64,000 nucleotides of DNA, taken from assembly GCA_022376515.1 (NCBI GenBank), contig WTXI01000110.1, forward strand, positions 50,889-114,888, written 5' to 3'. The DNA comes from Lactifluus volemus (Eukaryota > Basidiomycota > Agaricomycetes > Russulales > Russulaceae). The position numbers and the translations under genes are program-made. Shown here piece after piece: positions 17,247-61,093 of the stretch; position 1 is the stretch's first letter; the number at the start of each line of letters is the position of its first letter. Below the pieces are notes generated by a model. That model worked only from the letters and a program-made list of their open reading frames with translations, ran no database searches and was not told the origin of the DNA.

Positions 17247-19933
17247 TTACTGTGGACGATCAGCGTCGCGAGGGGGTGTTGTGTTGACAAGATGCTCAGG
17301 CTGTGCAAGGTCTGTGGCTGGGGAGTTGTCTTGGGCATCGAACGTTGCATCATTCTCTGGCAAGTTTGATTGCGAATCAGAGGTCACCTGCGAAGGTGTA
17401 AGAGATATTTCCGGAACTGAGCCTAGCGTCAACAATCTTGATCCAGGAGTAGTTAGGTCGATTTGCGATGTGGGAGAGGCTGACTCGGAGGACATCAGGG
17501 GATCAACAGGAAGCATGTCACTGGAGGCTGGTACAGGTGAAGACAATGATGGAATGTCACGGACCATCAAAGGAGGGTCAACATCCGAGTCTGTCTTGTA
17601 CAATCGATCGGCACCACTAGATGGAAGCGATGGAGAGATCCCAGTCGAGGCTACCATGTCAGACTCTGAGCTGTCCATAGGTGAGATGACTGATGTGTCA
17701 GCATGATTTTCTGTTGCAATGGTGAGCGCTGGGTCAGGTAAAGTAGTAGCAAAATCGTTGTTTCCAGCATTGACTGGTGGAGAGAGATGGGAAAATTGGA
17801 TAGTTGGGGTAGCATGAGGTACACCGTGTGGGGATGACTGTTCTGTGAAATTTATGCGGGAATGATCTGGGTTAAATGCGGGTAAGGATGGCGTGATGTT
17901 TTTCAGATCGGCATCGGGAGGGTGAATGGTATCGTCTGTTGTGCTGTCGGAATGATGATTCGGGATGTTACATAATGGGTACGAGGATGGCTGGAGCAGG
18001 ATGGGGTTAGAATGATTGGTGGAAGCCTCAAAGGCGGTCGGGACGGCATCGGTGCCTTGATGTAAGGCGATGAAATGACGCCGATTGGGTTTCAGAATAG
18101 AATAAGATCCGGAATTACAAAATTGGTTCCACAGAGCACAGAAGTCATGCTGCAGTCCAGGAAGAGTATTTCGAATGTCAAATTTGGAAATGATTGATTG
18201 AATCTCCCTCAGCAGGCTAACAAACCCACGAAACTTGTAATAGAACTGTCGAGCAAAGTGGATCCAGTTGGTGAGCAATACGCTGTCACCATGTGCGAGG
18301 TAGTCATCGAGAACATCTTCTGATATCTGTAACTGGTCCATCACCAGTACCTTCCAACGACCATCGCGTTCTCGTACACTTGCAATGATCCCAGCAACTA
18401 ATGCTTGTGAACATCCGGCGATTCCAAGATTGCTACTATGACATTGTCTTCTCAGTACGTGTCCGATTTGAACGGACTGCAACACTCCGTCCATGGGAGG
18501 CGGACCAAAAACCTGTGAGACGAACTTGAAAGACGGAAATGAATGGCCGAGTGTATTGAGAGCCTGCATGCAGAGTATGAACCGCTTTTCTTTGATCCTC
18601 TCAGAGAGCAAACGAGATGAGAGAGTACGGATCAACAATCCTTCGCAACCCGCAGTCAAAACCCAAACATCCAGATTGGCAAACATTCGTCTAGGTTCGT
18701 GGACCACTTGTGAGGTAGAGAACGCAGGGATTGCCTCGAAGAACTGCTCCAGCTCGTGGTCTTCATCCAGAGCCTCAAATGTCCATTTCAAAACATGACC
18801 GTCAATTTCCGCTGACATATTCGAAGCATGTTCTTGGGCTGTCTTCACTATACCCCACGAGGTCTGTTTATGATAAGCTTCCCGCATCGCATGAAAGCGT
18901 TCATAGGTTGTGCCAGTAAAATAATCAAAGGAATATGTGACGAAGGTGAGAATGCGGAAGACTTCGTATCGCACGGCATTAAAAAGGAACCAGGTTGAGA
19001 AAGTGAGAGGCGAATAGTAAGGGCTGTCATGATGGAAGATTGGCACCAACGCGATGCATCCATATATCCCTCCAGAAAGCCCGATCCACCAAGAAACGAT
19101 ACTGAACGTGGTGTGATTGATGTTGAATAAGAAAACAAGAAGGCCGGAAAAGAATAGGAACAGAGAAACGTGCAGCAGCGTCGGCAACATCTCAACTGCC
19201 AAAGGAAGATGAAACTTTTCCACTCCATCTGCGAAGAACGAACGAATTCGTGCTCGCTTGTGTGGACTCAATCGCGGTGGTTGAGTAACTGTGAGGTATC
19301 GACGCGCCCACTGCTGTAACAATGTTGCCAGAAGTGCAGATGTAAGACTGATGACCAAGCTCAGGAACCAGAGTGAATTGACCCAGATTGCATATCTCGG
19401 TGGAGAGAACGGGGGTGGTGTAGCTAGGGTGGAAAGGGTCGATGCAAGAGATATGTTCGGGTCAGCGAGAAGTTGATAGATGTTGGCAAGATAGAACGCA
19501 GCGGTATCCTGTGGATTTGGCCTCAAGTCCTGGATTGACATGGCGAGCAATGCCGCAACTGCAGCAGAGAATAAACCGGTCTATGGTGTTCACGTTTGTC
19601 ACTACTCTCGAGTGCGTGGAGGTAAGATGAAGAACTGACGAAAATAAGGATGCCGTCTGCATCCTTTTGCCAGCGATCGGCCATTTTGTTATCTTCCTCC
19701 TGCGACATTTTCACGTACATGTTGAAAATGGGTTCAGCGCCATCACTAAGGGTGGGCTGGCCCTGTGACGGTTGACGTTGTTCTGAACGAGGGACATTGG
19801 GGTTTCCGGCTGTGACGAGTGATAGAGCTCTGTGAAACTAAGGACACAAAGTAGGGTAGGATGACGTACTTGTGTCTATTCTCTCATCGCCTGTATCCTC
19901 CACTTGAACGATTGGGTGGGCAGGTTGGGACAT
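17247..19933 (-). CDS. DUF6535 membrane protein, copy 1
   Basis: Predicted exons on the minus strand: 19870-19933, 19640-19827 and 17247-19580, separated by 42- and 59-nt GT-AG introns, giving about 861 residues. The start is MSQPAHP. Exon 2 carries MSQEEDNKMADRW and ends in GILIF, which joins TGLFSAAVAALLA to make the first membrane segment. Further segments lie at about 150-172 (WVNSLWFLSLVISL, then LLQQWARRYL), 216-236 and 243-265. These are hallmarks of DUF6535, a family expanded in Agaricomycetes whose function is unknown. A soluble region and a Ser/Pro-rich C-terminal tail of about 250 residues follow. The large exon alone begins at a non-ATG codon, so it is not the whole gene. The divergent neighbour did2 is 7.5 kb away because a LINE sits between them. 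Confidence 0.85.
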
Positions 19934-20233
19934 CAAAGGTTTATATGGATTGAGAGATGGTGCGATGATACAAGGCAGACAAATTGAATGCCCTTGAACC
20001 CGAGCGTCAATCCACGTAAACAAAGCGATCCATTTCCGGCTCCGGACCTCAGCGTCCATCCCTCCTTGACCTCTTACTACCACCATCTCTTCAGAACCCG
20101 CCTGGTATCCTCGCGACCTGAATAGCTGGTACGTCCTCTAGTCACTGTTTTCAATACTCACGGCTGTCTCCCCTTCAATTCTACGTTGTCTCGCCCGCTC
20201 TCCCACTTCCCTCCCTCCCCCCCTCCTCCCTCC

Positions 20234-27503: not shown

Positions 27504-28334
27504 ATGAGCAACCTCGAGAGTGAGTAACATCTCTGAAATGATACCTTATTGTTCTTAGAGACACCTTTTCAACTCAAGGTACTCCTTCTCTCTACCATAA
27601 TCTCTTTCCAAACACCAAAACTGATCATCTCCGCAGTTCACGGCAAAGTCACTCCATCGCCAAGCAAAGAAGGCGCAAAAGGATGAGAATGTGGAGGAGA
27701 AGATACGACTGAAAAAGTTATGTATGGTAATTTGAAGGGCCTACTCACAACTGAATTCTTAATTTATTTGGACGCAGGCGTTGCAGCAGGGCAACAATGA
27801 TGGCGCGCGGATATACAGTACGCCTCGAACGCAATCCGAAAGAAGATCGAGTCGCTCAACCTGCTCCGCCTTGCGAGTCAGTAGCTTGCAGGGTCGAGAT
27901 GACTGTGACGATGCGACACGTCACGGGTAACATGATGAGCGTAGTGAAAGGCATGGACAAAGCGATGGAAACCATGAACCTCGAGCGTGTGCGTCCCTTT
28001 CCCTTCCCCTCCCCCCTTCCTCCCTCTTATCTATATATCTCCTTCCCATTAGATCTCCCTCGTGATGGATGAATTCGAGGCTCAATTTTCAGACTTGGAC
28101 GTACAGACGTCGTACATGGAAGATGCGATGTGTTCCACTACGGCGGTATCGACGCCTCAGGACCAAGTGGACTCGCTCATGCGTGAAATGGCGGAAGAAG
28201 CCAATATTGAATTGCAGTAAGACCACGCGGACAAGGAGGTGCGGAGCCTCGCGCCTCCCGAACGTAGCGCCGTGATCGGAGTGGAGGACAGCACCATCGC
28301 CGATCGGTTGCGCGCGCTGTGGCCTGCCACGTAG
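27504..28334 (+). pseudogene. did2: did2 (CHMP1-type ESCRT-III) pseudogene, unit 1
   Basis: Did2/CHMP1 recruits the Vps4 ATPase to ESCRT-III at endosomes. The exons can be followed: MSNLE, then TPFQLK, then [14 protein letters not shown], then [19 protein letters not shown], then the final exon ending LRALxPAT. Lesions: the donor after the FTAKS exon is changed from GTATGT to TTATGT; a small deletion in the ASRVDAVAS segment leaves a TAG (about 27880); and CAA to TAA near 28218 stops the last exon. The C-terminal Vps4-binding (MIM1-like) motif LADRLRAL has a frame of its own but is unreachable. It lies immediately upstream of an arp2 fragment. Confidence 0.85.
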
Positions 28335-28360: not shown

Positions 28361-29133
28361 CAGTGCTGACGCTTTATGCGCAAGGTGGTTCTACTACCTC
28401 TTTCTCCCCGTCCCCCCATTCCTACCTCGGCCGCGTCACCATTCGCATATAACACGGGCTTTCGTCGTCGTCTTTTCCGCTGCTGCCTCGCTTTCGGCAG
28501 AGGCTGTCAGCGGGAGGAGGGCTCGCAAATAGAAAGGAAGAGCAGCCCCGATGTTAACTTCTGCAGGCCTCACGACCGGCGCTGTGCTTTGACTCTGGTT
28601 CGAGGATGATCACGCGCTCTGCAATACTTTTCGCGAGGCGCCCGAGTGCATATTTCAGCCACACCTGGTCGACATCGAGCAACCGGGCGTTGCGGAGATG
28701 CTCTCCAAGACGATCCAGAGCGCGGCGGTCGACGTCCCTGCGGAGCTGTACAAGCACATCGCGCTCTACTGCGGATCGAGCATGTACCCCACCTCGAAAA
28801 AGAAATGAAGCAACTGTACTTTACGCGCGTGCTCAATCGCGACCCTTCGCGTCTGAATGTACGTCCGGCCCTTGTTTCTCGTCACCGTCACCTCTCTGTT
28901 CTCCCCCCCCCCCCCCCCCCCCTTCATTTCCATAAGGCGCTGACGTGATTTTTTTCTTTTCAGATATTCATGATTCGTATCGAGGACCCGCAACACAGGA
29001 AGCACATGGTCTTCCTTGGGGGGTGCCATTTTGGCGGACATCATGAAGGCACGAGAAGAGTTCTTGGTATCAAAGAGGAGTGGTACGAGGAGGGCATGCG
29101 CTCGTTCGATATATTAGGTCGTGGGGAAAGTTG
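28361..29133 (+). pseudogene. arp2: arp2 pseudogene fragment, unit 1
   Basis: Starts 27 bp after the did2 stop, at the exon end LTLYAQG, and runs to LGRGES stop. The central third of arp2 (from the DSGDG loop to just before FEAPEC) is missing. A 60-bp stretch including gatgatcacgcgctctgc lies at the junction, shared with unit 4. The frame is also broken near KHMVFLG by an extra G. A run of about 20 C residues (28902-28922) lies in the last intron. Confidence 0.85.
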
Positions 29134-29271
29134 AGCAGCTACGTAGACTGTAGATGGGATGGATGTGTACCTGTATCATTACTTAGAGACGCCTTATCGT
29201 GCTTTTCAGAGTTACGTGACGAGATGGGTCCCCAGCTGCCGAAAGAACCAGCTCGAAACATTGTCGTTGTC

Positions 29272-30845: not shown

Positions 30846-33567
30846 TTACTGTGGACGATCAGCGTCGCGAGCAGGTGTTGTGTCGACGAGATGTTCAGGC
30901 TGTGCAAGGTCTGTAGCCAGGGAGTTGTCAATCGTTGCATCATTCTCCGACAAATTTGCCAGTGATTGCGAATCGGAGGTCACTTGTGGGGATGTGAAAC
31001 AGATTTCCGGAATTGAGCCTAGCGTCAACAGTCTTGAACTAGGAGCAATTAGCTCGATTTGCGATGTCGGAGATCTGGCCGAGGACATCAGGGGATCCGA
31101 AGGAAGCATGTCACTGAAGACTGGTACAGGTGAAGACGATGGTGGAATGCCAGGTACCACCGAAGGAGGATCACCTATCTTGTACAGCCGATCGACGGCA
31201 CCACTAGATGAGAACGACGGAGAGATCGCTGTCGAGGCTGCCATGGCAGGTCGAGTATCAGATTCCGAGTTGTCCATGGGCGAGATAGCTGGTGCGGCAG
31301 CGTGAGTTTCTGTCGCAATGCTGAGGGCTGGGTCAGGCAAAGTAGTGACAAAATCGTTGTTTCCAATATCGACTGGTGGAGACTGGATGATTGGGGTAGC
31401 ATGAGGTCCACCATGGAGAGACACCTGTTCTGTGAGGTGTATGCGGCTATGAGCTGGGTTGAATGCGGGTAAGGATGGTACGTCAGGCGCTGCAAGGGCG
31501 ATGCTGTCCAGATTTGGACTGGGAGGGTGAATGAGTGAATGAGTGGTGTCGTCTATTGCGCCATCGGAATGATGACCCGGCACGTTACACAATGGGTACG
31601 AGGGTGACCAGCGCAGGATGGGGTCAGAATCATCGGTGGAAGCATCGAAAGCGGTCGGGACAGCATCGGTGCCTTGATGTAAAGCGATGAAAAGATGCCG
31701 ATTGGGTCTCAGAATATCATTAGTGACGTAAGGAGATTCTTTATTACGCAATTTGTTCCACAAAGCACAGAAGTCATGCTGCAGTCCAGGAAGAGTATTT
31801 CGAATGTCGAATTTGGAAATGATCGATTGAATCTTCTCCAGCAGGTCAGGAATCCAATGAAACTGGTAATAGAAGCGAAAGAACTGGCGAGTGATGTGGA
31901 TCCAGTTGGCGAGCAATACGCTGTCACCATGTGCGAGGTAGTCTTCGAGAACATCTTCTGATATCTGTAACTGGTCCATCACGAGCACCTTCCAACGACC
32001 ATCGCGTTCTCGTACACTTGCAATGATCCCAGCAACTAATGCTTGTGCAGATACGGGGATTTTAAGATCGCTACTATGGAATTGTCTTCTCAGTACGTGT
32101 CCGATTTGAACGGACTGCAACACTCCGTCTATGGCAGGCGGACCAAAAACCTGTGAGAGGAACTGGAAAGACGGAAATGAACGGCCGAGTGTATTGAGAG
32201 CCTGCATGCAGAGTATGAACCGCTTTTCTTTCATCCTCTCAGAGAGCAAACGAGACGAGAGAGTACGGATCAAGAATCCTTCGCAAGCCGCAGTCAAAAC
32301 ATCCAGATTGGCAAGCATTCGTCTGGGTTCGTGGACCACTTGTGAGGTACAGAACGCAGGGATTGCCTCGAAGAACTGCTCCAGCTCGTGGTCTTCGTCC
32401 AGAGCCTCAAATGTCCATTTCAAAACGTGACCGTCGATTTCCGCTGACATTTTCGAAGTACCTTCTTGGGCTGTCTTCACTATACCCCACGAGCTCCGTT
32501 CGCGATAAGCTTCCCGCATCGCATCAAAGCGTTCGTAGGTTGTGCTGGTAAAATAATCAAAGGAAAGTGTGACGAAGGTGAGAATGCGGAAGACTTCGTA
32601 TCGCACGCCATTAAGAAGGAACCAGGTTGAGAAAGTGAGAGGCGCATAGTAAGGGCTGTCATGATGGAAGATTGGCAGCAACGCGATGCATCCATATATC
32701 CCTCCAGAAAGCCCGATCCACCAAGCAACGATACTGAATGTGGTGTGATTGATGTTGAACAAGAAAACAAGAAGGCCGGAAAAGAATAGGAACAGGGAAA
32801 TGTGCAGCAAGGTTGGCAATGCCTCAACTGCCAAAGGAAGATGAAACTTTTCCACACCATCTGCGAAGAACGAACGGATTCGTGCCCGCTTGTGTGGACT
32901 CAATCGTGGTGGTTGAGTAACTGTGAGGTATCGACGCGCCCACTGCTGTAACAGTGTTGCCAAAAGTGCACCTGTAAGACTGATGACCAAGCTCAGGAAC
33001 CATAATGAATTGACCCAGATTGCGTATCTCGGTGGAGAGAACGGGGGTGGTGTAGCTGGGGTGGCAAGGGTCGATGCTAGAGATATGTTCGGGTTGGCGA
33101 GAAGTTGATAGATGTTGGCAAGATAGAATGCAGCGGTATCCTGTGGATTTGGCCTCAAGTCTTGGATTGACACCGCGAGCAATGCTGCAACTGCAGCAGA
33201 GAATAAACCGGTCTACGGTGCTCAAGTTTGTCAGTACTCTCGATTGCGTGGAGGTAAGATGAAGAACTGACGAAAATGAGGATGCCGTCTGCATCCTTTT
33301 GCCAACGATCGGCCATTTTATTATCTTCCTCTTGAGACATTTTCACGTACATGTTGAAAATGGGTTCAGCGCCATCACTAAGGGTGGGCTGGCCCTGCGA
33401 CAGTTGACGTTGTTCTGAACGAGGGATATTGGAGTTTCCGGCTGTAACGAGTGATAGAGCTCTGTCAAGCTAAGGATATAAAGTAGGGTAGAGGATGACG
33501 TACTTGTGTCTATTCTCTCATCGCCCGTATCCTCCACTTGAACGATTGGGTGGGCAGGTTGAGACAT
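30846..33567 (-). CDS. DUF6535 membrane protein, copy 2
   Basis: Predicted exons 33504-33567, 33272-33459 and 30846-33212 with introns of 44 and 59 nt; about 872 residues. Exon lengths of the first two (64 and 188 nt) equal those of copy 1. Four membrane segments in the N-terminal 265 residues as in the other copies. The central region carries the QSVQIGHVLRRQ variant shared with copies 1 and 5. The tail (HPPSPNLDSIALAAPDVPSL) is closest to copy 6. The start codon is 141 bp from the start of the divergent did2 pseudogene. Function unknown; integrity is good. Confidence 0.88.
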
Positions 33568-44120: not shown

Positions 44121-44712
44121 GCAGCTACGTAGACCGTAGAGGGGATGGATGATTACTTAGAGACGCCTTATCGTGCTTTTCAGAGTTACGAGTCAAGATG
44201 GGTCCCCATCTGGCAAGCTGTGGTTATCCGCCGAAAGAAGCAGCTCGAAAAATTGTCATTGTACTATCGATAAAACAATTGCGGTAAACACCACAACGTA
44301 CGCACCCGCGTGGCGATTCAATATTCTGCACAAGCTCTGGGGAATTGATTGAGTAAAAAGTCTACATACGCACTATTACAGACAGAGAAAGCACAAAACG
44401 ACAGGGCAATATAAATCAAGAAAGAATAATTGTAATAAGAGAAACTGGTACGGGAGTAAAATTGGGGGACAGTGCCAGGTGAGAGAAACATAGAGATGAG
44501 ATAGTGAGAAGTATTTGTGAATCAAGACAGCCGCGTATGGATACGAAACGGAACACAATACGTAAACACGGCCAGAGCTGAGTTCGCTTGCATCACCTGC
44601 AGTCAAACTTCAGCTTCAGCCTTGACACGGCTCAGAGACAGAACAACTTACCGATTTTGAAATACATTTCCGACAGCTTATGACGGTGTCCAACAAAGTG
44701 ACCATTTCGATC
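44121..44712. other. Inter-unit spacer, unit 3 to unit 4
   Basis: Non-coding and matches 2473-2872 plus 17044-17246 as one uninterrupted sequence, giving the empty site for the MITE at about 44510. Confidence 0.6.
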
Positions 44713-47420
44713 TTACTGTGGACGATCAGCGTCACGAGCGGGTGTTGTGTCGACGAGATGCTCAGGCTGAGCAAGGTCTGTGGCCGGGGAGTTGTCTTGG
44801 CCATCGAACGTTGCATCATTCTCTGGCAAGTTTGATTGCGAATCGGAGGTCACCTGCGAAGGTGTAAAAGATATTTCCGGAACTGAGCCTAGCGTCAACA
44901 ATCTTGATCCAGGAGTAGTTAGGTCGATTTGCGATGTGGGAGAGGCCGACTCGGAGGACATCACGGGACCCACAGGAAGCGTGTCACTGGAGGCTGGTAC
45001 AGGTGAAGACAATGATGGAATGTAAGGTACCATCGAAGGAGGGTCAACATCCGAGTCTGTCTTGTACAATCGATCGGCACCACTAGACGGAAGCGATGGA
45101 GAGATCGCAGTCGAGACTACCATGGCGGGCCGAGTATCAGACTCTGAGCTGTCCATAGGCGAGATGGCTGATGTGTCAGCATGACTTTCTGTTGCAATGG
45201 CGAGCGCTGGGTCAGGTAAAGTAGTGGCATAGTCGTTGCTTCCAGCATTGACTGGTGGAGAGAGGTGGGAAGACTGGATGATTGGGGAAGCATGAGCTAC
45301 ACCATGTAAAGACGGCTGTTCTGTGAAATGTACTCGGCTATGATCTGGGTTTAATGCGGTTAAGGATGGGGCGACGTTGTTCAGATCAGCATCGGGAAGG
45401 TGAACAGGGGATGAGTGAATGGGTGAATGAGTGGGATGATGACCCGGGACGTTACACAATGGATACGAGGATAACCGGTCCAGGATGGGGTCAGAATCAT
45501 CGGTGGAAGCATCGAAACGGGTCGGGAGAGAATTGGTGCCTTGATGTAAAGCGATGAAATGATGCCGATTGGGTCTCAGAACATGTCTAGGCAAATAAGA
45601 CCCGGAATTATGCGCTCCTAGGTTGATTTGGTTCCAGAAAGCACAGAAGTCGTGCTGCAATCCAGGAAGAGTATTTCGAATGTCGAATTTGGAAATGATT
45701 GATTGAATCTTCTCCAGCAGTATTACAGTCGGCCAATAAAGCCTGTAATCCGAGTCGACGCGAAACATTTGGCTAGTGAAGTGAATCAAGTTGGCGAGCA
45801 ATACGCTGTCACCATGTGCGAGGTAGTCTTCGAGAACATCTTCTGATATCTGTAACTGATCCATCACAAGTACCTTCCAACGATCATCGCGTTCTGCACT
45901 TGCAATGATCCCAGCAACTAACGTTTGTGCAAATAAAGCGTTTTGGCCTTTCATACTATGGCATCGGCTTCTGATTAAGTGTCCCATTTGAACGGACTGA
46001 AACACTCCGCCCTTGGCAAAAGCTTCTGAGAGAAGGTTTAAAGACGGAAATGAGCAGAGGAGTGTATCGAAAGCCTGAATGCAGAGTGTGAACCGCCTTT
46101 CTTTCATCTTCTCAGAGAGCAAACGAGATGCGAAGGTACGGATCAAGAATCCATCGCAAGCCCCAGTCACATTCAGATAGGCAAGCATTCGTCTGGGTTC
46201 GTGGACCACTTGTGAGGTAGAGAACGCAGGGATTGCCTCGAAGAACTGCTCCAGCTCGTGGTCTTCGTCCAGAGCCTCAAATGTCCATTTCAAAACATGA
46301 CCGTCGATTTCCGCTGACATTTTCGAAGCACGTTCTTGCGCTGTCTTCACAATACCCCACGAGGTCCGTTTGTGATAAGCTTCCCGCATCGCATAAAAGC
46401 GTTCATAGGTTGTGCCGGTAAAGGAAAGTGTGACGAAGATGAGAATGCGGAAGACCTCGTATCGCACGCCATTAAGAAGGAACCAGGTTGAGAAAGTGAG
46501 AGGCGCATAGTAAGGGCTGTCATGATGGAAGATTGGCAGCAACGCGATGCATCCATATATCCCTCCAGAAAGACCGATCCACCAAGAAACGATACTGAAC
46601 GTGGTGTGATTGATGTTGAACAAGAAAACAAGAAGGCCGGAAAAGAATAGGAACAGGGAAACGTGCAGCAGCGTCGGCAAAGTCTCAACTGCCAAAGGAA
46701 GATGAAACTTTTCCACTCCATCTGCGAAAAACGAACGGATTCGTGCTCGCTTGTGTGGACTCAATCGCGGTGGTTGAGTAGCTGTGAGGTATCGACGCGC
46801 CCACTGCTGTAACAGTGTTGCTAGAAGTGCACCTGTAAGACTGATGACCAAGCTCAGGAACCATAATGAATTGACCCAGATTGCGTATCTCGGTGGAGAG
46901 AACGGGGGTGGCGTAGCTGGGGTGGAAAGGGTCGATGCAAGAGATATGTTCGGGTCGGCGAGAAGTTGATATATGTTGGCAAGATAGAACGCAGCGGTAT
47001 CCTGTGGATTTGGCCTCAAGTCTTGGATTGACACCGCGAGCAATGCCGCAACTGCAGCAGAGAATAAACCGGTCTACGGTGTTCACGTTTGTCACTACTC
47101 TCGAGTGCGTGGAGGTAATATGAAGAACTGACGAAAATGAGGATGCCGTCTGCATCCTTTTGCCAGCGATCGGCCATTTTGTTGTCTTCCTCTTGGGACA
47201 TTTTCACGTACATGTTGAAAATGGGTTCAGCGCCATCACTAAGGGTGGGCTGGCCCTGTGACGGTTGACGTTGTTCTGAACGAGGGTTTCCGGCTGTAAC
47301 GAGTGATAGAGCTCTTGTGAAGTTAAGGATATAAAGTAGGGTAGAGGATGACGTACTTGTGTCTATTCTGTCATCGCCTGTATCCTCCACTTGAACGATT
47401 GGGTCAGCAGGTTGAGACAT
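44713..47420 (-). CDS. DUF6535 membrane protein, copy 4
   Basis: Predicted exons 47357-47420, 47133-47311 and 44713-47073 with introns of 45 and 59 nt; about 867 residues. Exon 2 is nine bases shorter than in other copies (three codons lost before RSEQRQ), an in-frame change that supports exon 2 being translated. The central block is the QSVQMGHLIRSRCHSMKG variant as in copy 3. After the fourth membrane segment it lacks four residues found in other copies (VTLSFTGTTYERF). Start 145 bp from the did2 start. Confidence 0.88.
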
Positions 47421-47565: not shown

Positions 47566-48394
47566 ATGAGCAACCTCGAGAGTGAGTAACTAGTTTCCAT
47601 CTCTGAAATGATACCTTATTGTTCCTAGAGACACCTTTTCAACTCAAGGTACTCCTTCTCACTACCATAATCTCTTTCCAAACACCAAAACTGATCATCT
47701 CCGCAGTTCACGGCAAAGTCACTCAATCGCCAAGCAAAGAAGGCGCAAAAGGATGAGAATGTGGAGAAGACACGACTGAACAAGTTATGTATGTATTTTG
47801 AAGGGCCCACTCACAACTGAATTCTTAATTTATTTGGACGCAGGCGTTGCAGCAGGGCAACAATGATGGCGCGCGGATATACGCCTCGAACACAATCCGA
47901 AAGAAGATCGAGTCGCTCAACCTGCTCCGCCTTGCGAGCCAGTAGCAAGCAGGATCGAGACGGCCATGACGATGCGACACGTCACGGGTAAACATGATGA
48001 GCATAGTCAAAGGCATGCACAGAGCGATGGAAACCATGAACCTCGAGCATGTGCGTCCCTTTCCCTCCCCCTCCCCCCTTCCTTCCTCTTATCTATATCC
48101 CCTTCCCATTATATCTCCCTCGTGATGGATAAATTCGAGGCTCAATTCTCAGACTTGGACGTACAGACGTCGTACATGGAAGATGCGATGGGTTCCACTA
48201 CGGCGGTATCGACGCCTCAGGACCAAGTGGACTCGCTCATGCATCAAATGGCGGAAGAAGCCAACATTGAATTGCAGCAAGACCTCGCGGACAAGGAAGT
48301 GCCGAGCCTCCCCCCTCCCGAACGTAGCGCCATGATCGGAGAGGAGGATAGCACCCTCGCCGATCGATTGCGCGCGCTGCGGCCTGCCACGTAG
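47566..48394 (+). pseudogene. did2: did2 pseudogene, unit 4
   Basis: Exon series as elsewhere. The exon before the broken donor reads ENVEKTRLNK, with no internal indel. The donor carries the TTATGT change of units 1 and 2, and the ASRVDA deletion leaves TAG. The last exon (48125-48394) is open. Confidence 0.85.
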
Positions 48395-48420: not shown

Positions 48421-49196
48421 CAATGCTGACGCTTTATGCGCAAGGTGGGTTCTACTACCTCTTTCTCCCCATCCTCCCCATTCCTACCTCGGCCGCGTCA
48501 CCATGTGCATATAGAGCGGGCTTTCGTCGTCGTCTTTTCCGCTGCTGCCTCGCTTTCGGCAGAGGCTGTCATGGAGATGCCAGCGGGAGGAGGGCTCGCA
48601 AATAGAAAGGAGAGCAGCCCCGATGTTAACTTCTGCAGGCCTCACGACCGGCGCTGTGCTTTGACTCTGGTTCGAGGATGATCACGCGCTCTGCAATACA
48701 TTTCGCGAGGCGCCCGAGTGCATATTTCAGCCACACCTGGTCGACATCGAGCAACCGGGCGTTGCGGAGATGCTCTCCAAGACGATCCAGAGCGCGGCGG
48801 TCGACGTCCGTGCGGAGCTGTACAAGCACATCGTGCTCTACTGCGGATCGAGCATGTACCCGCCTCGAAAAAGAAATGAAGCAACTGTACTTTACGCGCG
48901 TGCTCGATCGCGACCCTTCGCGTCTCAATGTGCGTCCGGCCCTTGTCTCTCGTTACCGTCACCTCTCTGTTCTCCCCCCCCCCTTCATTTCCATATGGTG
49001 CTGACGTGATTTTTTTCTTTTCAAAAATCCAAGATTCGTATCGAGGACCCGCAACGCAGGAAGCACATGGTCTTCCTTGCGGGGTGCCATTTTGGTGGAC
49101 ATCATGAAGGCACAAGAAGAGTTTTGGGTATCAGGAGAGGAGTGGTACGAGCAGGGCGTGCGCTCGTTGGATAAAATGAGTTGTGGAGAAAGTTGA
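48421..49196 (+). pseudogene. arp2: arp2 pseudogene fragment, unit 4
   Basis: Same truncated form as unit 1, including the extra gatgatcacgcgctctgc piece at the deletion junction, so units 1 and 4 share a more recent ancestor. An additional base near the MVFLGG segment (about 49080) breaks the frame. Confidence 0.85.
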
Positions 49197-49245
49197 GCAG
49201 CAACGTAGATCGTAGACGGGATGGATGTATCTGGGTGATTACTGA

Positions 49246-50508: not shown

Positions 50509-53189
50509 TTACAGTGGACGATCAACGTCGCGATGGGGTGTTGTATCGACGAGATGCTCGCGCTGTGCAAGGTCTGTGGCCGGGGAGTTGTCATGGGTGT
50601 CGAACGTTGCATCCTTCTTTGGCATGTTTGATTGTGAATCGGAGGTCATCTGCGGGGATGTGAAAGATATTTCTGGGACTGAGCCTTGCGTCAACAATCT
50701 TGAACCAGGAGTAGTTAGCTTGATTTGTGATGTGGGAGAGGCCGCGTCGGAGGACATCAGGGGATCAACAGGAAGCGTCTCACTGGAGGCTGGTACAGGT
50801 GAAGGCGATGATGGAATGTCAGGTACCATCGAAGGAGGGACAACCTGCAAGCTTGTGATGTTGACGGAACTGCCAGAAGGCAGCGACGGAGAGATCACAG
50901 TCGAGGCTACCATTGCAGGTTGAGTATCGGATTCCGAGTTGTCCATGGGGGAGATAACTGGTGTGTCAGCGTGACTTTCTGTCGCAATGGTGAGTGCTGG
51001 GTCAGGTAAAGGAGTGGCAAAGTCGTTGTTTCCAACATTGACTGGTGGAGAGAGGTGGGAAGACTGGATGGTTGGGGTAGCATGAGCTACACCACCATGT
51101 GGGGATGACTGTTCTGTGAAATTTATGCGGCTATGATCTGGAATAAATGCGGGTAAGGATGGCGCGATGTTGTTCAGATCGGCATCGGGAGGGTGAATAG
51201 TATCGTCTGTTGTGCCGTCGGAATGATGATTCGGAATGTTACATAATGGGTACGAGGATGGCTGGAGCAGGATATCATCGGTGGAAGCATCGAAAGCGGT
51301 CGGGACAGCATCGGTGCCTTGATGTAAAGCAATGAAATGATGCCGATTGAATCTCAGAATATAATAAGATTCTTTATTACGCAATTGGTTCCACAAAGCA
51401 CAGAAGTCGTGTTGCAGTCCAGGAAGAGTATTTCGAATGTCGAATTTGGAAATGATCGATTGAATCTCGTCCAGCATGTCAGGATATTCGTAACAGAGCT
51501 GGTGAGTGATGTGGTTCCAGTTGGCGAGCAATACGCTGTCACCATGTGCAAGGTAGTCTTCGAGAACATCTTCTGATATCTGTAACTGATCCATCACGAG
51601 CACCTTCCAACGACCATCGCGTTCTCGTACACTTGCAATGATCCCGGCAACTAACATTTGTGCAGGTAAAGCGGTTAGATGTGAGCTATCATGGCATTGT
51701 CTTCTCAGTACGTGTCCGATTTGAACGGACTGCAACACTCCGTCCATGGCAGGCGAACTAGAAACCTCTACGAGGAAGTCGAAAGACGGAAATGAACAGC
51801 CGAGTGTATTGAGAGCCTGCATGCAGAGTATGAACCGCTTTTCTTTGATCCTCTCAGAGAGCAAACGAGACGAGAGAGTACGGATCAACAATCCTTCGCA
51901 TGCCACAGTCAAAACCCAATCACCCAGATTGGCAAGCATTCGTCTGGGTTCGTGGACCACTTGTGAGGTACAGAACGCAGGGATTGCCTCGATGAACTGC
52001 TCCAGTTCGTGGTCTTCGTCCAGAGCCTCAAATGTCCATTCCAAAACATGACCGTCGATTTCCGCTGACATTTTCGAAGCACGTTCTTGAGCTGTCTTCA
52101 CCATACCCCACGAGGTCCGTTCGCGATAAGCTTCCCGCGTCACATAAAAGCGTTGATAGGTTGTGGCGGTAAAATAATCAAAGGAATATGTGACGAAGGT
52201 GAGAATGCGGAAGACTTCGTATCCCACAGCATTAAGAAGGAACCAGGTTGAGAAAGTGAGAGGCGCATAGTAAGGGGTGTCATGACGGAAGATTGGCAGC
52301 AACGCGATGCATCCATATATCCCTCCAGAAAACCCAATCCACCAAGAAACGATACTGAACGTGGTGTGATTGATGTTGAACAAGAAAACAAGAAGGCCGG
52401 AAAAGAATAGGAACAGGGAAACGTGCAGCAGCGTTGGCAACGTCTCAACTGCCAAAGGAAGATGAAACTTTTCCACACCATCTGCGAAGAACCAACGGAT
52501 TCGTGCTCGCTTGTGTGGACTCAATCGCGGTGGTTGAGTAGCTGTGAGGTATCGACGTGCCCACTGCTGTAACAGTGTTGCCAGAAGTGCACTTGTAAGA
52601 CTGATGACCAAGCTCAGGAACCAGAGTGAATTGACCCAGATTGCGTATCTCGGTGGAGAGAACGGGGGTGGCGTAGCTGGGGTGGCAAGGATCGATGCAA
52701 GAGACATGTTCGGGTTGGCGAGAAGTTGATAGATGTTGGCAAGATAGAACGCGGAGGTGTCCTGTGGATTTGGCCTCAAGTCCTGGATTGACACCGCGAG
52801 CAATGCTGCAACTGCAGCTGAGAATAAACCGGTCTACGGTGTTAATGTTGGTCGCTACTCTCGAGTGCGTGGAGGTGACATGAGGAACTGACGAAAATGA
52901 GGATACCATCTGCATCCTTTTGCCAGCGATCGGCCATTTTATTGTCTTCCTCTTGGGACATTTTCACGTACATGTTGAAAATGGGTTCAGCGCCATCACT
53001 AAGGGTGGGCTGGCCCTGTGACTGTTGACGTTGTTCTGATCGAGGGACATTAGAGTTTCCGGCTGTGACGAGTGATAGAGCTCTTGTGAAGCTAAGGTCA
53101 TAAAATAGGGTAGAGGATGACGTACTTGTGTCTATTCTCTCATCGCCTGTATCCTCCACTTGAACGATTGGGTGAGCAGGTTGGGACAT
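50509..53189 (-). CDS. DUF6535 membrane protein, copy 5
   Basis: Predicted exons 53126-53189, 52893-53080 and 50509-52833 with introns of 45 and 59 nt; about 858 residues, the shortest of the six. Central block of the QSVQIGHVLRRQ type. The tail has several in-frame deletions relative to the others, including loss of the NxSDPI residues near the middle, and a different SVNITSLQVV segment where others have DRLYKTDSD. All indels keep the frame. Start 145 bp from the divergent did2 start. Confidence 0.88.
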
Positions 53190-53334: not shown

Positions 53335-54031
53335 ATGAGCAATCTCGAGAGTGAGTAACAGATTTCTATCTCTGCAATGGCAACTTGAGACACTTTTTCA
53401 TTTCAAGATACTCCTTCTCTTTACCATCATCCCTTTTCAAAGCCCAACAGATAATCCCCGCAGTTCACAGCAAAGTCATTGAATCGCCAAGCAAAGAAGG
53501 CACAAAAGGACGCCTCGGACGCAATCCGAAAGAAGACCGAGTCGCTCAACCTGCTCCGCCTCGCGAGCCGCATCGATGCGTAGCGAGCAGATTCGAGACG
53601 GCTGTGACGATGCGACAAGTGACGGGCAACATGACGAACATAGTCAAAGGCATGCACAAAGCAATGGAAACCATGAACCTCGAACGTGTGCGTCCCTTTC
53701 CCTTCCCCTCCCCCCTTCCTTTCTCTTATCTATACCCCCTTCCCATTAGATCTCCCTCGTGATGGATAGATTCGAGGCTCAATTTTCAGACTTGGACGTA
53801 CAGATGTTGTACACGGAAGATGCGATGGGTTCCACTACGGCGACATCGACGCCTCAGGACCAAGTGGACTCGGTCATGCGTCAAATGGCGGAAGAAGCCA
53901 ATATTGAATTTCAGCAAGACCTCGCGGACAAGGAGGTGCCCAGCCTCGCCCCTCCCGAACGTAGCTCCGTGATCGGAGAGGAGGACAGCACCCTCGCCGA
54001 TCTCTTGCGCGCGCTGCGGCCTGCCACGTAG
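53335..54031 (+). pseudogene. did2: did2 pseudogene, unit 5
   Basis: The most decayed copy. The exon from KDENVEK to RIYAS and its intron have been deleted (gcacaaaaggacgcctcgg near 53508). The first acceptor and second donor are lost. In contrast to the others, the ASRIDA segment is nearly complete, missing only one base (TAG at about 53580). The last exon (53762-54031) is open with changes such as [13 protein letters not shown]. This copy therefore branches separately from units 1, 2, 4 and 6. Confidence 0.85.
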
Positions 54032-54055
54032 GGCACCGTCTCTGCGGTGGTTCCC

Positions 54056-55218
54056 CAGTGCTGACGCTTTATGCGCAAGGTGCGTTCGACTACCTTTTTC
54101 TCCCCGTCCTCCCCACTCCTACCTCGGCCGCGTCACCACGTCCATATAGAACGGGCTTTCGTCGTCGTCTTTTCCGCTATTGCCTCACTTTCGGCGGAGG
54201 CTGTCATGGAGATGCCGGCGGGAGGAGGGCTCGCAAAATGAAAGGAGAGCAACCCCGATGTTGAGGATTAACTTCTGCAGGCCTGACGACCGGCGTTGTC
54301 GTCGACAGCGTGACGCATATCGTTCCGGTATATGACGGCTTTGCGCTACCCCATCTCATGAGGGGACTCGATATCGCCGGGGAGACGTCACGCAGTATCT
54401 AATCAAGCTCCTGCTCATGCGCGGGTACGCATTCAACCGCACGGCCCTTTGAGACCGTTCGGGAGATTAAGGAGAAGCTTTGCTATGTCAGGTATGTTTA
54501 TATTAGCCACTTATGGATTACTCGCGTGCGTCGCTGAAACCGGCTTCAGGCTATGACCTCGACATGGACACCCGATTGGCAGAAGGGACCACCACGGTGG
54601 TGGAGAGCTACATCGTGAGATAGACTCGTGACGTCTTAGCTTCCGATATCTTTCAACCTTCTAACTTGTACTATTCCAATCGTCAGTTGCTCGATGGCCA
54701 GTCAGTTCTAAGCGGTTCGAGGCGCCCGAGTGCATGTTCCAGCCACACCTGGTCGACATCGAGTAACCGGGCGTTGCGGAGATGCCCTCGAGGCGACCCA
54801 GAGTGCTGTGACCGACGTCCGCGCTGAGCTGTACAAACACATCGTGCTCTCTGGCGGATCGAGCATGTACCCCGGCCTCCCTAGCGACCTCGAAAAAGAA
54901 ATGAAGCAACTGTACTTCACGCGCGTGCTCAATCGCGACCCTTCGCGTCTCGATGTACGTCCAGCTATTGTCTCTTGTCACCCTCTTGTCACCGTCACCC
55001 CTCTGTTCTCTCCCCCCTTCTTTTTTCATATGGCACTGACGCCTCAGACATTCAAGATTCGTATCGAGGACCCTCCGCACAGGAAGCACATGGTCTTCCT
55101 TGGAGCTGCCGTTTTGGCGGACATCATGAAGACAAGAGAAGAGTCTTGGGTATCAAGAGAGGAGTGGTACGAGCAGGGCGTGCGCTCCTTGGATAATTTG
55201 GGTCGTGGGGAAAGTTGA
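54056..55218 (+). pseudogene. arp2: arp2 pseudogene, long 3' form (unit 5)
   Basis: Retains the middle exons that units 1, 2, 4 and 6 lack ([14 protein letters not shown], then YDLDMDTRLA, then VVESYIV). The DSGDG loop has the same three-codon loss as the copy at 1299. Other lesions: a frame break after CGCACGGCC (about 54445) and a stop (gagtaacc) in the VDIEQPG segment near 54762. The last exon to LGRGES is in frame. Confidence 0.85.
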
Positions 55219-55761
55219 GTAGCTACGTAGACCGAAGACGGGATGGATGTACCTGTATAATTACATAGAGACGTCTTATCAGCGTTACGAGACAAGACGG
55301 GTCCCCCATCTGGCAAGCTGTACTTATCCATGGAAGCAACCAGCTCGAAATCTGCCATTGTATTTGGATAATACAATCGTAATAAATGCCACAATGTACG
55401 CATCTGCGTGGCGGTTCAATAATCAGCGAGTGATTGATTGAGCAAATTCTACATACGCACTACCACAGGCCGAGAAAGGCACAAAACGACAGAGCAAGAT
55501 AAATGAGGAAAGAGGAACTGTACTAAAAAGAAACGGGTACGGGAGTAGGATTGGGAGACCGTTCCATGTGTGAGAAACATAGAGATGAGCTAGTGAGAAC
55601 TAGTTGTTGATCACGAAGAGCCGCGTATGTATGTACAAGACTTAAACACGCCTAGTGGAGCTGAGTTCGCTTTCATCATCTGCAGTCACGCTTCAGCCTT
55701 GAGACGGCTCAGAGACAAGCCAGCTTACCGATATCCAAATACATTCACGACCATTTCGATC
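55219..55761. other. Inter-unit spacer, unit 5 to unit 6
   Basis: Diverged version of the common spacer. No gene seen. Confidence 0.5.
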
Positions 55762-58483
55762 TTACTGTGCATGATCAACGTCGCGAGGCGGTGTTGTGTC
55801 GACGAGATGCTCAGGCTGTGCAAGGTCTGTAGCCAGGGAGTTGTCAAACGTTGCATCATTCTCTGACAAATTTGCCAGTGATTGTGAATCGGAGGTCACT
55901 TGTGGGGATGTGAAAGAGATTTCCGGAATTGAGCCTAGCGTCAACAATCTTGAACCAGGAGCAATTAGCTCGATTTGCGATGTGGGAGATCTGGCCGAGG
56001 ACATCAGGGGATCCGCAGGAAGCATGTCACCGGAGACTGGTACAGGTGAAGACAATGGTGGAATGCCAGGTACCATCGAAGGAGGGTCACCATCCAACCC
56101 TATCTTGTACAGCCGATCGACGGCACCACTAGATGAGAATGACGGAGAGATCGCTGTCGAGGCTACCATGGCGGGTCGAGTATAAGATTCCGAGTCGTCC
56201 ATGGGCGAGATAACTGGTGCGGCAGCGTGACTTTCTGTCGCAATGTTGAGGGCTGGGTCAGATAAAGTCGTGACAAAGTCGTTGTTTCCAACATCGACTG
56301 GTGGAGAGTGGGAAGACTGGATGATTGGGGTAGCATGGGGTACACCATGAAGAGACGACTGTTCTGTGAGATGTATGCGGCTATGAGCTGGGTTGAATGC
56401 GGGTAAGGATGGTACGTCAGGCTGTGCAAGGGCGATGGTGTTCAGATTTGGACCGGGAGGGTGAATATGTGAATGTGTGGTGTCGTTTATTGCGCCATCG
56501 GAATGATGACCTGGGACGTTACACAATGGATACGATGATCGCTGGAGCAGGATGGGGTCAGAATCATCGGTGGAAGCATCGAAAGCGGTCGGGACAGCAT
56601 CGGTGCCTTGATGTAAAGCGATGAAAAGATGCCGATTGGGTCCCAGAATATAAGTAGTTGTGGTATTACGCCGCAAATGGTTCCACAAAGCACAGAAGTC
56701 GTGCTGTAGTCCAGGAAGAGTATTTCGAATGTCGAATTTGGAAATGACCGATTGAATCTTCCATAGCAGTAATGTGGCCGACAACCCAAACTGGTAATAG
56801 AAGGGAAACGTTTGACGAGTGATGTGGATCCAGTTGGCGAGCAATACGCTGTCACCATGTGCGAGGTAGGTTTGGAGAACATCTTCTGATATTTGTAACT
56901 GATCCATCACAAGTACCTTCCAACGATCATCGCGTTCTGCATTTGCAATGATCCCAGCAACTAACGCTTGTGCAGATAAAGTGTTTTCGTCTTCCATACT
57001 ATGGCGTTGGGTTCTGAGTAACAGTCCTATTTGAACAGACTGAAACACTCCCTCCATGGCAAAAGCTTGTGAGAGCAGGCTTAAAGACGGAAATGGGGAG
57101 TGGAGTGCATCGAAAGCCTGCATGCAGAGTATAAACCGCCTTTCTTTGATCCTCTCAGAGAGCAAACGAGACGAGAGAGTACGGATCAACAATCCATCGC
57201 AAGCCGCAGTCAAAACCCGAACATCCAGATTGGCAAGAATTTGTCTGGGTTCGTGGACCACTTGTGAGGTAGAGAACGCAGGGATTGCCTCGAAGAACTG
57301 CTCTAGCTCGTGGTCTTCGTCCAGAGCCTCAACTGTCCATTTCAAAACATGACCGTCGATTTCCGCTGACATATTCGAAGCACGTTCTTGGGCTGTCTTC
57401 ACTATACCCCACGAGGTCCGTTTGCGATGAGCTTCCCGCATCGCATAAAAGCGTCTATAGGTTGTCCTGGTGAAATAATAACCAAAGGAATGTGTGACGA
57501 AGGTGAGAATGCGGAAGACTTCGTATCGCACGCCATTAAGAAGGAACCAGGTTGAGAAAGTGAGAGGCGCATAGTAAGGGCTGTCATGATGGAAGATTGG
57601 CAGCAACGCGATGCATCCATATATCCCTCCAGAAAGCCCGATCCACCAAGCAACGATACTGAACGTGGTGTGATTGATGTTGAACAAGAAAACAAGAAGG
57701 CCGGAAAAGAATAGGAACAGGGAAACGTGCAGCAGCGTCGGCAACGTCTCAACTGCCAAAGGAAGATGAAACTTTTCCACTCCATTTGCGAAGAACGAAC
57801 GGATTCGTGCTCGCTTGTGTGGACTCAATCGCGGTGGTTGAGTAGCTGTGAGGTATCGACGTGCCCACTGCTGTAACAATGTTGCCAGAAGCGCAGATGT
57901 AAGACTGATGACCAAGCTCAGGAACCATAATGAATTGACCCAGATTGCGTATCTCGGTGGAGAGAACGGGGGTGGTGTAGCTGGAGTAGCAAGGACAGAT
58001 AAACGTGATATGTTCGGGTCGGCGAGAAGTTGATAGATGTTAGCAAGATAGAATGCGGCGGTATCCTGTGGATTTGGCCTCAAGTCCTGGATTGACACCG
58101 CGAGCAATGCCGCAACGGCAGCGGAGAATAAACCGGTCTACAGTGTTCATGTTGGTCACTACTCTCGTGTGGGTGGAGGTAACATGAAGAACTGACAAAA
58201 ATGAGGATACCATCTGCATCCTTTTGCCAGCGATCGGCCATTTTATTATCTTCCTCTTGGGACATTTTCACGTACATGTTGAAAATGGGTTCAGCGCCAT
58301 CACTAAGGGTGGGCTGGCCCTGTGACGGTTGACGTTGTTCTGACCGAGGGGTATTGGGGTTTCCGGCTGTAACGAGTGATAGAGCTCTGTGAAGCTATGG
58401 ATTTAAAGTAGGGTAGAGGATGACGTACTTGTGTCTATTCTCTCATCCTCCATTTGAACGATTGGGTGAGCAGGTTGGGACAT
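55762..58483 (-). CDS. DUF6535 membrane protein, copy 6
   Basis: Predicted exons 58429-58483, 58197-58384 and 55762-58137 with introns of 44 and 59 nt; about 872 residues. Exon 1 is nine bases shorter (three codons lost after QMED), again in frame. The protein is a mosaic: the central block (FAMEGVFQSVQIGLLLRTQRHSME) resembles copies 3 and 4, but the tail (PPGPNLNTIALAQPDVPSLPAF) resembles copy 2. It ends DVDHAQ rather than DADRPQ. The divergent did2 start is 134 bp away. Confidence 0.88.
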
Positions 58484-58617: not shown

Positions 58618-60326
58618 ATGAGCAATATCGAGTGTCACCCGTCGCCTTATGCGGCGACCCCCTCCCCTCCTTCACTTACTTTACGTTCACCACTTGTCCG
58701 TCCCCTTACCCTCGCATGCTCACGCGTTCCTCTTGTATAGTGGGGAGAGGCTGTTGGAGCAGTCGGTCGTGGTGACGACGAACAGGAGGTCCGGTACCCT
58801 TTTGCAGGGCCTGGGTCGCTCTTTACTTATCCTATTACCTAACCGCTCGTTAGTCCCTTCTCTTACGGACCTTGCTTTGAAGTCCCCCCTCATATCTCAT
58901 ACTCATACATTTACCCGCTCCATTTCCATATTCCTTGACACTGACCCTGCGCGCACAGTCGAACTCCGGCTCTTCAAGCGGTCTCTCGGGTCCCTGGTTC
59001 CGACGTGCTCGCGTATCTCTTGAATGGGGTCCAACCTCGTCTTGTCACTCTCCCCCCTGTGCCCCCTAAGCTCCTCACCTTTCACCTTTGGCACTCTGAC
59101 CTCCTCGCAGGCTGCCTCGAGCATAAGCCTGGACACCATGCGTGGCTTGCCTGCCCCCCACCCCTTCACCTAACGACCGCTTCCGTCCTACCGCAGATGA
59201 CAACACCTGCTGCCCGTGCAACTACGTCTCGCCACCCTTCCCCACCTTATCACCTCTCCCTTCGCCCTCACCGGCCACTCACCACCGCCCCTGATTGAGC
59301 CGGCCGACCGTGGCCGCGTCAGTCCCGTCCCCCTTTACTCCGTCTTCTTTCTCTCTCGCAGCTGGTGTCACCTTCGCATACCGCCTCCTTACCTCTTTTT
59401 ATCTCTTACAAATGACCCACTACAACTGGGAATGTATCGTAGATTACATGTCTTGTCGCTTTCGCAGGGACAATAAACTCCAATTCAAAAAAAAAAACCT
59501 CAAGAGTGAGTAACTAGTTTCCAACTCTGCAATGGTAACTTATTGTTCCTAGAGACACTTTTTCAACTTAAGGTACTCCTTCTCTCTACCATCATCCCTT
59601 TTCAAAAGCCCAACTGATTATCTCCGCAGTTCACAGCAAAGTCACTCAATCGCCAAGCAAAGAAGGCGCAAAAGGATGAGAATGTGGAGAAGACACGACT
59701 GAAAAGGGTATGTATGTATTTTGAAGGGCCCACTCACAACTGAATTCTTAATTTATTTGGACGCAGGCGTTGCAGCAGGGCAATAATGATGGCGCGCGAA
59801 TATACGCCTCGAACGCAATCCGAAAGAAGATCGAGTCGCTCAACCTGCTCCGCCTTGCGAGTCAGTAGCAAGCAGGGTCGAGACGGCCGTGACGATGCGA
59901 CACGTCACGGGTAAACATGACGAGCGTAGTGAAAGGCATGGACAAAGCGATGGAAACCATGAACCTCGAACGTGTGCGTCCCTTTCCCCCCTTCCCCCCT
60001 TCCCCCTTCCTTCCTTCCTCTTATCTATATCTCCTTCCCATTAGATCTCCCTCCTGATGGATAAATTCGAGGCTCAATTTTCAGACTTGGGCGTACAGAC
60101 GTCGTACATGGAAGTTGCGATGGGTTCCACTACGGCGGTATCGATGCCTCAGGACCAAGTGGACTCGCCCATGCGTCAAATGGCGGAAGAGGCCAATATT
60201 GAATTTCAGCAAGACCTCGTGGACAAGGGGGTGTTGAGCCTCGCCCCTCCTGAACGTAGAGCCGTGATCGGAGTGGAGGATAGCACCATCGCCGATCGGT
60301 TGCGCGCGCTGCGGCCTGCCACGTAG
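58618..60326 (+). pseudogene. did2: did2 pseudogene, unit 6, split by a LINE
   Basis: Exon 1 begins ATGAGCAATATCGAG and is interrupted by LINE sequence (58633-59497). The rest resumes with cctcaagagtgagt. This copy keeps the ancestral GTATGT donor after the FTAKS exon (about 59707), which units 1, 2 and 4 have lost, but shares the ASRVDA deletion and its TAG. The last exon (60057-60326) is open. Confidence 0.85.
58633..59497 (+). mobile_element. 5'-truncated LINE copy inserted in did2 exon 1
   Basis: Matches the LINE from about 26340 onward (SGERLL segment) with a large internal deletion within the C-terminal ORF2 region (around 59165-59200) and ends in gacaataaactccaattc plus an A run. More diverged from the 20-kb copy than the 29-kb copy is. 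The target duplication is blurred (tcgag against tcaag). Confidence 0.85.
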
Positions 60327-60351
60327 GGCGCCGCCTCGGTGCGGTGGTTCC

Positions 60352-61093
60352 CCAATGCTGACGCTTTATGCGCAAGGTGGGTTCGACTACCTCTTTCTCC
60401 CCGTCCTCCCCATTCCTACCTCGGCCGCGTCACCATGTGCATATAGAACGGGCTTTCGTCGTCGTCTTTTCCGCTGCTGCCTCGCTTTCGCCAGAGGCTG
60501 TCATGAAGATCCCGGTGGGAGGAGGGCTCGCAAAATGAAATGGGAGTAGCCCGATGTTGAGGGTTAACTTCTGCAGGCCTCACGACCGGTGTCGTGCTTT
60601 GACTCTGGTTCGAGGCGCCCAAGTGCATATCTCAGCTACACCTGGACGACATCGAGCAACCGGGCGTCGCGTAGATGCTCTTCGAGACGACCCAGAGCGC
60701 GGCGGTCGGCGTCCGCGCGGAGCTGCACAAGTACATCGTGCTCTCCGGCGGATCGAGCATGTACCCCGCCTCGAAAAGAAATGAAGCAACTGTACTTTAA
60801 GCGTGTACTCAACCGCGACCCTTCGCGTCTGAATGTACGTCCGGCCCTTGTCTCTTGTCACCGTTACCTCTCTGTCCTCCCCCTTTTTCCATATGGCGCT
60901 GACGTAGTTTTTTTCTTTTCAGAAATTCAAGATTCGTATCGAGGACCCGCCACTCAGGAAGCACATGGTCTTCCCTGGGGGTGCCGTTTTGGCGGTCATC
61001 ATGAAGGCACGAGAAGAGTTTTGGGTATCAAGAGAGGAGTGGTACGAGGAGGGCATTCGCTCGTTCGATGTATTGGGTCGTGGGGAAAGTTGA
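60352..61093 (+). pseudogene. arp2: arp2 pseudogene fragment, unit 6
   Basis: Same short form and same direct DSG-to-FEAP fusion as unit 2, to which it is nearly identical. An extra stop (gcgtagatg, about 60671) lies in the GVAEML segment. The 3' exon is in frame. Confidence 0.85.

Follow-up and report, generated by a model that had tools for sequence, protein, structure and literature searches.

Why does one gene of an amplified unit stay open in all copies of an array that is otherwise littered with broken genes? This question is raised by the final 64 kb (the window, that is, the whole stretch of DNA analysed) of contig C14 (114,888 bases, without any N) in a 62.4 Mb assembly of Lactifluus volemus, in which six genes of the DUF6535 family (PF20153), all on the minus strand and called here D1 to D6, are interspersed with remnants of did2 (CHMP1) and arp2. 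An initial annotation of this DNA had suggested that selection keeps DUF6535, had named dosage, diversification and selfishness as possible reasons, and had proposed dN/dS (the ratio of nonsynonymous to synonymous divergence, omega in the site models) as a check. In the present study we show that the membrane domain of the DUF6535 proteins is under strong purifying selection and that defined sites in the helical solenoid attached to it are under diversifying selection, firmly so for the first half of the solenoid and less so for the second. We propose that these proteins may represent membrane-anchored recognition receptors. Plain coordinates are window positions and those with a prefix (C14:, C176: and so on) are contig positions.

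The six stop codons reported by the initial annotation, which form the lower coordinates of D1 to D6 in the table below, are all found in place, where they terminate long frames on the minus strand (777, 788, 789, 786, 774 and 791 codons, respectively). All six frames match PF20153 (E 1.3e-43 to 1.6e-42; 145.8-149.3 bits against a cut-off of 23.9). A three-exon model fits each of the six copies, with GTACGT and GTCAGT as donors and with exons 1 and 2 joined in a consistent frame; exon 1 has 64 nt (55 in D6), exon 2 170 nt (161 in D4) and the last exon 774-791 codons, with introns whose lengths are free to vary (60-63 nt for intron 1 and 53-59 nt for intron 2). The genes are open as had been described, although the total lengths of 852-867 aa are slightly below the 858-873 codons first given. 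The near copy C176:14445, read with the same model, yields the public protein P0002 (866 aa) with every residue identical, and full-length P0002 scores 189.7 bits against PF20153. In pairwise alignments of the last exons, 183 of 238 gap runs are divisible by three; for the DNA between the genes the figure is 70 of 314. Since all six frames are open, the remaining 55 coding gap runs must net to frame.

The predicted architecture consists of a four-helix membrane anchor (the DUF6535 domain), an all-helical solenoid facing the cytosol and a disordered tail. The anchor shows four hydropathy peaks, with eight Lys and Arg against two Asp and Glu in the loop between the second and the third; the solenoid, modelled alone, reaches a predicted local distance difference test score (pLDDT) of 88.5, and the C-terminal tail is rich in Ser, Thr and Pro. 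The PF20153 match, which in all six window proteins lies over the membrane domain, spans only this part (residues 52-231 of P0002), and the solenoid with its diversifying sites is outside the profile. No NACHT or NB-ARC domain was detected in P0002 by Pfam at E up to 10, where only DUF6535 and a sub-threshold CbtA appeared, nor in the six window last exons at E 0.001, where DUF6535 was the only match. A fold comparison of the solenoid gave no significant match among the structures compared, and for this reason function was not assigned from the fold.

The check by dN/dS, carried out among the six window copies, gives pairwise values of 0.48-0.72 and about 0.6 when pooled; the pooled value is an average over unlike parts of the protein and conceals two regimes. 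In order to separate them, 20 open last exons from C14, C176, C212 and C303 were divided into the membrane part, the first and second solenoid halves and the tail, and each segment was fitted with its own tree by using our own code for the models M0, M1a and M2a, verified by simulation. The M0 estimates of omega are 0.21 for the membrane part, 1.35 and 1.09 for the solenoid halves and 0.88 for the tail. The gain of M2a over M1a, expressed as twice the log-likelihood difference (2ΔlnL), is 0.5 for the membrane part, 180 and 198 for the solenoid halves and 12 for the tail, and the solenoid codons fall in two classes, one strongly conserved (omega 0.12-0.14) and one fast (omega 5-6). With codons near any gap removed (the strict filter) the same four values are 0.6, 129, 21.6 and 2.1, and for the six window copies alone they are 2.0, 63.9, 60.1 and 0.2. 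Analysing 17 blocks of fifty codons under the strict filter and with their own trees, we obtained 35.6, 30.2, 16.9 and 42.3 over columns 200-400, 7.9 in one membrane block and at most 3.0 in the remaining twelve, including those over the second solenoid half, where just 22-32 codons per block are retained at columns 400-550.

Neutral data were simulated with recombination because the copies are mosaics, the nearest neighbour switching along the gene in five of the six window copies. Without recombination all eight neutral sets stayed at or below 2.4. In the recombining null, with tip labels reshuffled every 35 codons, the ranges over 12 sets each were 2.9-52 for the first half, with nine sets exceeding the nominal 5.99, 0-21.7 for the second half, and 0-9.7 for the first half in six copies. 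The first solenoid half lies beyond the null ranges in all settings (180, 129 under the strict filter, and 63.9 in the six copies).

A yardstick is provided by the did2- and arp2-bearing flanks, whose mean divergence between units is 0.106. The mean membrane dN of 0.028 is below flank divergence in 15 of 15 pairs; together with the six open genes and the coding indels that keep frame, this bears out the suggestion that selection keeps DUF6535. The mean solenoid dN is 0.130 and exceeds flank divergence in 10 of the 15 pairs. Between D2 and C176:14445, nonsynonymous and synonymous changes number 7 and 27 in the membrane part versus 28 and 6 in the solenoid (Fisher 5.5e-7), and pN/pS in the membrane part and the solenoid is 0.29 versus 1.24 for D4 and C176:537, 0.21 versus 0.80 for C14:40257 and C176:35431, and 0.12 versus 0.48 for D3 and C176:8989. 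The 43 selected residues, with their main clusters at P0002 positions 282-308, 382-389, 421-431, 459-469, 522-541, 569-581 and 612-614, are also the most variable ones in 106 aligned homologues with less than 65% identity to P0002, some of them L. volemus paralogues, the other named ones from Russulaceae and most without a species name (mean entropy 3.0 bits versus 1.7 for the rest of residues 279-620; Spearman 0.54, n=339).

A simpler explanation would be relaxed constraint, by which the membrane part is maintained and the solenoid, being under little constraint, drifts, so that no recognition role need be invoked. The tail does behave in this manner (2ΔlnL of 12 with all copies, 2.1 under the strict filter and 0.2 in the window copies), and several observations weigh against our proposal of diversifying selection. 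Omega under M0 is near 1 in the solenoid as well as in the tail, and solenoid dN is about equal to its own dS overall. The flanks may understate the neutral rate, since mean dS (0.155 in the membrane part, 0.136 in the solenoid and 0.245 in the tail) is above the flank value in every part. The strictly filtered second half is at the edge of its null (21.6 against a maximum of 21.7), although it lies beyond it with all columns (198); strict filtering removes the second-half loops, which hold much of the change. Furthermore, a helical-wheel analysis gave no single interaction face, none of eight helices being significant at p < 0.05. Relaxed constraint is nevertheless opposed by the split of the solenoid codons into a conserved and a fast class, by the simulations, in which, for each of three settings, none of the 12 recombining neutral sets reaches the observed value, and by the variation of the same sites in more distant homologues. 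The two site classes and the simulations speak against simple relaxation in the first half of the solenoid and less clearly in the second, and we regard it as an unlikely explanation of the whole.

The nearly invariant membrane domain (omega 0.2) and the large size of the family would also be in agreement with a dosage or housekeeping role, in which the copies are kept since more of one membrane protein is useful and the solenoid variation reflects subfunctionalisation. Such a role predicts conservation of the whole protein, yet the solenoid carries accelerated sites and many in-frame length changes. Dosage-only retention was rejected as the main cause because the solenoid is accelerated, and the explanation as such is very unlikely. 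Among the reasons named at the outset, diversification is thus favoured over pure dosage, with a selfish role as an unlikely further possibility.

Copies were counted on five contigs (C14, C176 and C303 whole, C314:1-20000 and C212:54501-78500), which hold 27 close DUF6535 copies. The last exon is open in 20 of them, and the other seven are broken or truncated or run off the end of a contig. The initial claim that only DUF6535 stays intact applies to all six copies in the window but not to these seven. A frame-consistent exon 1+2 was found in 16 of the 20 open-last-exon copies and was not found in C14:28677, C176:537, C176:19228 and C176:35431; in C176:537 exon 2 is five bases short. In the genome, at least 150 places are above the Pfam cut-off (all 150 that were scored, of 776 first-look candidates), a figure that counts places and not genes and counts near-duplicate contigs twice. 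The named relatives come from Lactifluus, Lactarius, Russula and Multifurca. A second DUF6535 subfamily, represented by L007 (C605:103494-107075), is shorter, lacks the long tail and has neighbouring matches on C605 and C499; 639 homologues at E <= 0.001 were present among 7,995 scored.

Contigs C14 and C176 are largely collinear. C14:81573-98509 is collinear with C176:16944-1 at 94% identity over 17 kb, the order is kept in further blocks, and between anchors C176 carries two units (one of them broken) and C14 one; unit-to-unit matches out of order are also present. The two contigs look like two haplotypes differing in unit number, with a duplicated array as the alternative. Over a longer range, C14:37417-98509 and C176:1-40662 share collinear blocks at 90-94% identity. 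An array of this kind might be an assembly artefact or a collapsed repeat, given that the window ends at the contig end, that arrays are split over several contigs and that there are contig pairs with equal-score DUF6535 matches, such as C235 and C604. This is highly improbable: the nucleotide differences of 8-13% between the six last exons are not what collapsed or duplicated reads would show, C14 and C176 agree over the 17 kb mentioned above, and C176:14445 corresponds to a separately annotated public protein.

The tandem multi-copy arrays with birth and death, the unit difference between two largely collinear contigs and the fast evolution of a membrane protein are features that would equally suit a selfish element, with DUF6535 as killer or drive genes spread by segregation distortion. 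The wtf meiotic drivers (spore killers) of Schizosaccharomyces pombe are likewise a multi-copy, fast-evolving family with multiple membrane helices; wtf proteins are not known to have a long solenoid. The large folded solenoid behind the anchor, the number of matching places in the genome and the occurrence of relatives in the genera named above speak against a selfish element without being decisive, and we consider it distinctly unlikely.

The initial annotation took did2 and arp2 for genes that were duplicated together with DUF6535 and met a different fate. This is opposed by the absence of any N-terminal part of did2 on C14 in a Snf7 profile search and by the common start point within the gene in four of the seven window arp2 pieces, and because of these two observations did2 and arp2 were probably already debris when the unit was amplified. 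The five did2 pieces of the window, on the plus strand, contain the terminal exon with the CHMP1 C-terminus only (best solved relative CHMP1B, E 5e-15). One has an internal stop; the other four are without a stop in this exon, and the damage ascribed to them is true only as a deletion. The description of all arp2 copies as damaged is correct, since each of the seven contains a stop or a frame break or lacks its 5' part, and only that at 42459-44139 is near gene length; an arp2 piece matched Arp2 at E 1e-18. No complete copy of did2 or arp2 was found in the window. The arp2 pieces align to arp2 DNA across an intron, which points to an origin by DNA-level copying. Outside C14, an apparently intact arp2 is located on C190 (two pieces, left unspliced, that cover positions 23-404 of the 410 in the profile), with a similar stretch on C472. 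Among the other did2 and arp2 pieces listed outside C14, those on C548 aside, all but the ones on C334 and C133 have a related DUF6535 match no more than a few kilobases away. A tblastn search of 6 kb around the C190 gene found neither did2 nor the D3 last exon, and thus no parental did2-arp2-DUF6535 locus; given this result and the position of the did2 piece at C212:153 kb, which adjoins a DUF6535 tail, the parental did2 was not found.

The dN/dS check on did2 gave an omega of 0.58 for the terminal exon (2ΔlnL of 4.9 against omega 1; based on 11 in-frame copies whose stops were masked, with five copies that were frame-broken or partial set aside). The signal is weak and hints only faintly at constraint, and the lack of the 5' part speaks for debris rather than for selection on did2. 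The terminal exon with its CHMP1-like C-terminus is open in seven of the 11 copies tested (four of five in the window).

Table. Coordinates of the DUF6535 genes and of the did2 and arp2 pieces in the window
Feature	Position	Strand	Details
DUF6535 copy D1	17247..19933	-	exon 1 19870-19933, exon 2 19640-19809, exon 3 17247-19580; 855 aa
DUF6535 copy D2	30846..33567	-	exon 1 33504-33567, exon 2 33272-33441, exon 3 30846-33212; 866 aa
DUF6535 copy D3	36283..39002	-	exon 1 38939-39002, exon 2 38706-38875, exon 3 36283-38652; 867 aa
D3 stretch encoding the helical solenoid with hypervariable sites	37018..38076	-	solenoid modelled alone
DUF6535 copy D4	44713..47420	-	exon 1 47357-47420, exon 2 47133-47293, exon 3 44713-47073; 861 aa
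DUF6535 copy D5	50509..53189	-	exon 1 53126-53189, exon 2 52893-53062, exon 3 50509-52833; 852 aa
DUF6535 copy D6	55762..58483	-	exon 1 58429-58483, exon 2 58197-58366, exon 3 55762-58137; 866 aa
did2 (CHMP1) terminal exon piece	28053..28331	+	one internal stop
did2 terminal exon piece	34249..34527	+	open, 93 codons
did2 terminal exon piece	48113..48391	+	open
did2 terminal exon piece	53750..54028	+	open
did2 terminal exon piece	60045..60323	+	open
arp2 3' part	1501..2491	+	broken
arp2 3' part	28634..29153	+	broken
arp2 3' part	34816..35326	+	frame break in one exon
arp2, nearly gene-length	42459..44139	+	stops and frame breaks
arp2 3' part	48706..49222	+	broken
arp2 3' part	54254..55254	+	broken
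arp2 3' part, truncated	60609..61119	+	internal stop in one exon

Successive DUF6535 stops are separated by 13.6, 5.4, 8.4, 5.8 and 5.3 kb, and the unit length of 5.3-5.6 kb first proposed is found in two of these five distances and not in the other three. The D1-D2 interval is lengthened by a LINE-like element (long interspersed nuclear element) at 20126-27253, in which a 576-codon frame without a Pfam match is followed by a 1229-codon frame with endonuclease and reverse transcriptase domains. At 4097-15106 there is a Ty3-type long terminal repeat retroelement with gag, reverse transcriptase, RNase H and integrase-type matches; its 515-base flanking direct repeats are 100% identical, which suggests a recent insertion. 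Inside it, at 9006-12232, lies a large inverted repeat, composed of tandem 168-base and related units, with arms of about 1.35 kb at 99.5% identity. A scan of the window for tRNA and Rfam families found none.

In the mechanism that we propose, the array would belong to a giant DUF6535 family and evolve as a cluster by birth and death, and its amplified units would have spread and carried the dead did2 and arp2 pieces along. The solenoid would bind variable partners and the anchor would pass a common signal at a membrane, and the set of copies would form a diversifying intracellular recognition repertoire for allorecognition or defence, similar to the repeat domains of fungal NOD-like receptors (NLRs) but without their nucleotide-binding oligomerisation domain (NOD). 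A conserved anchor joined to a domain with hypervariable sites, retained over many mosaic copies, resembles the pattern of recognition repertoires. The evolutionary part of this explanation, namely birth and death, open frames, a conserved anchor, diversifying solenoid sites and mosaic copies, is in our judgement very probable. To the explanation as a whole, in which DUF6535 is a candidate membrane-anchored cytosolic recognition receptor, we assign a probability of roughly 0.45. Even if the mechanism is wrong, a near-frozen membrane module with a hypervariable attached domain constitutes a clear evolutionary puzzle, and the residues to test are named, which opens the function of DUF6535 to direct experiment.

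The recognition repertoires known from fungi consist for the most part of NLRs and het genes. A review (PMC10197012) puts the average number of NLR genes in a basidiomycete genome at 83. If our proposal is true, some mushrooms would possess a second, membrane-anchored repertoire, comparable to or above the NLRs in size and annotated only as of "unknown function". A literature search restricted to the family name found no functional study of DUF6535; the one paper that it retrieved lists, as a row of an expression table, a DUF6535 transcript in Flammulina that goes from 81 to 0 fragments per kilobase per million (FPKM) at high carbon dioxide. We tentatively suggest that the DUF6535 proteins could form a separate, non-NLR class of mushroom receptors across Russulaceae, with a four-helix anchor, a hypervariable cytosolic solenoid and at least 150 places in the genome, engaged in self/non-self or virus/parasite recognition.

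The comparison with the het-d/het-e (HNWD) family of Podospora anserina shows what such a class would share with NLRs. In both families the members undergo exchange with one another, and positive selection acts on defined residues of a domain that forms a superstructure; in Podospora, four WD-repeat residues are under diversifying selection and this domain sets recognition specificity (PMC1805685). The HNWD proteins differ in being NLRs with WD repeats in concerted evolution, whereas DUF6535 has a variable helical solenoid behind membrane helices and no detected NACHT or NB-ARC domain. Fungal NLRs with tetratricopeptide (TPR), ankyrin (ANK) or HEAT repeats likewise form large variable families with positive selection in helical repeat domains, and in PMC4986451 the sites under selection map to the concave face in all TPR cases and, but for one, in all ANK cases; DUF6535 differs by its membrane anchor and by the lack of a detected NOD, and no single face emerged in its solenoid. 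Of the features that define NLRs (as signal transduction ATPases with numerous domains, STAND), the DUF6535 proteins have a predicted C-terminal superstructure-forming domain with positively selected sites and show no central NACHT or NB-ARC domain. The former supports a likeness in function and not membership, and since no NOD domain was detected the DUF6535 proteins are not placed among the NLRs, although they may work like them.
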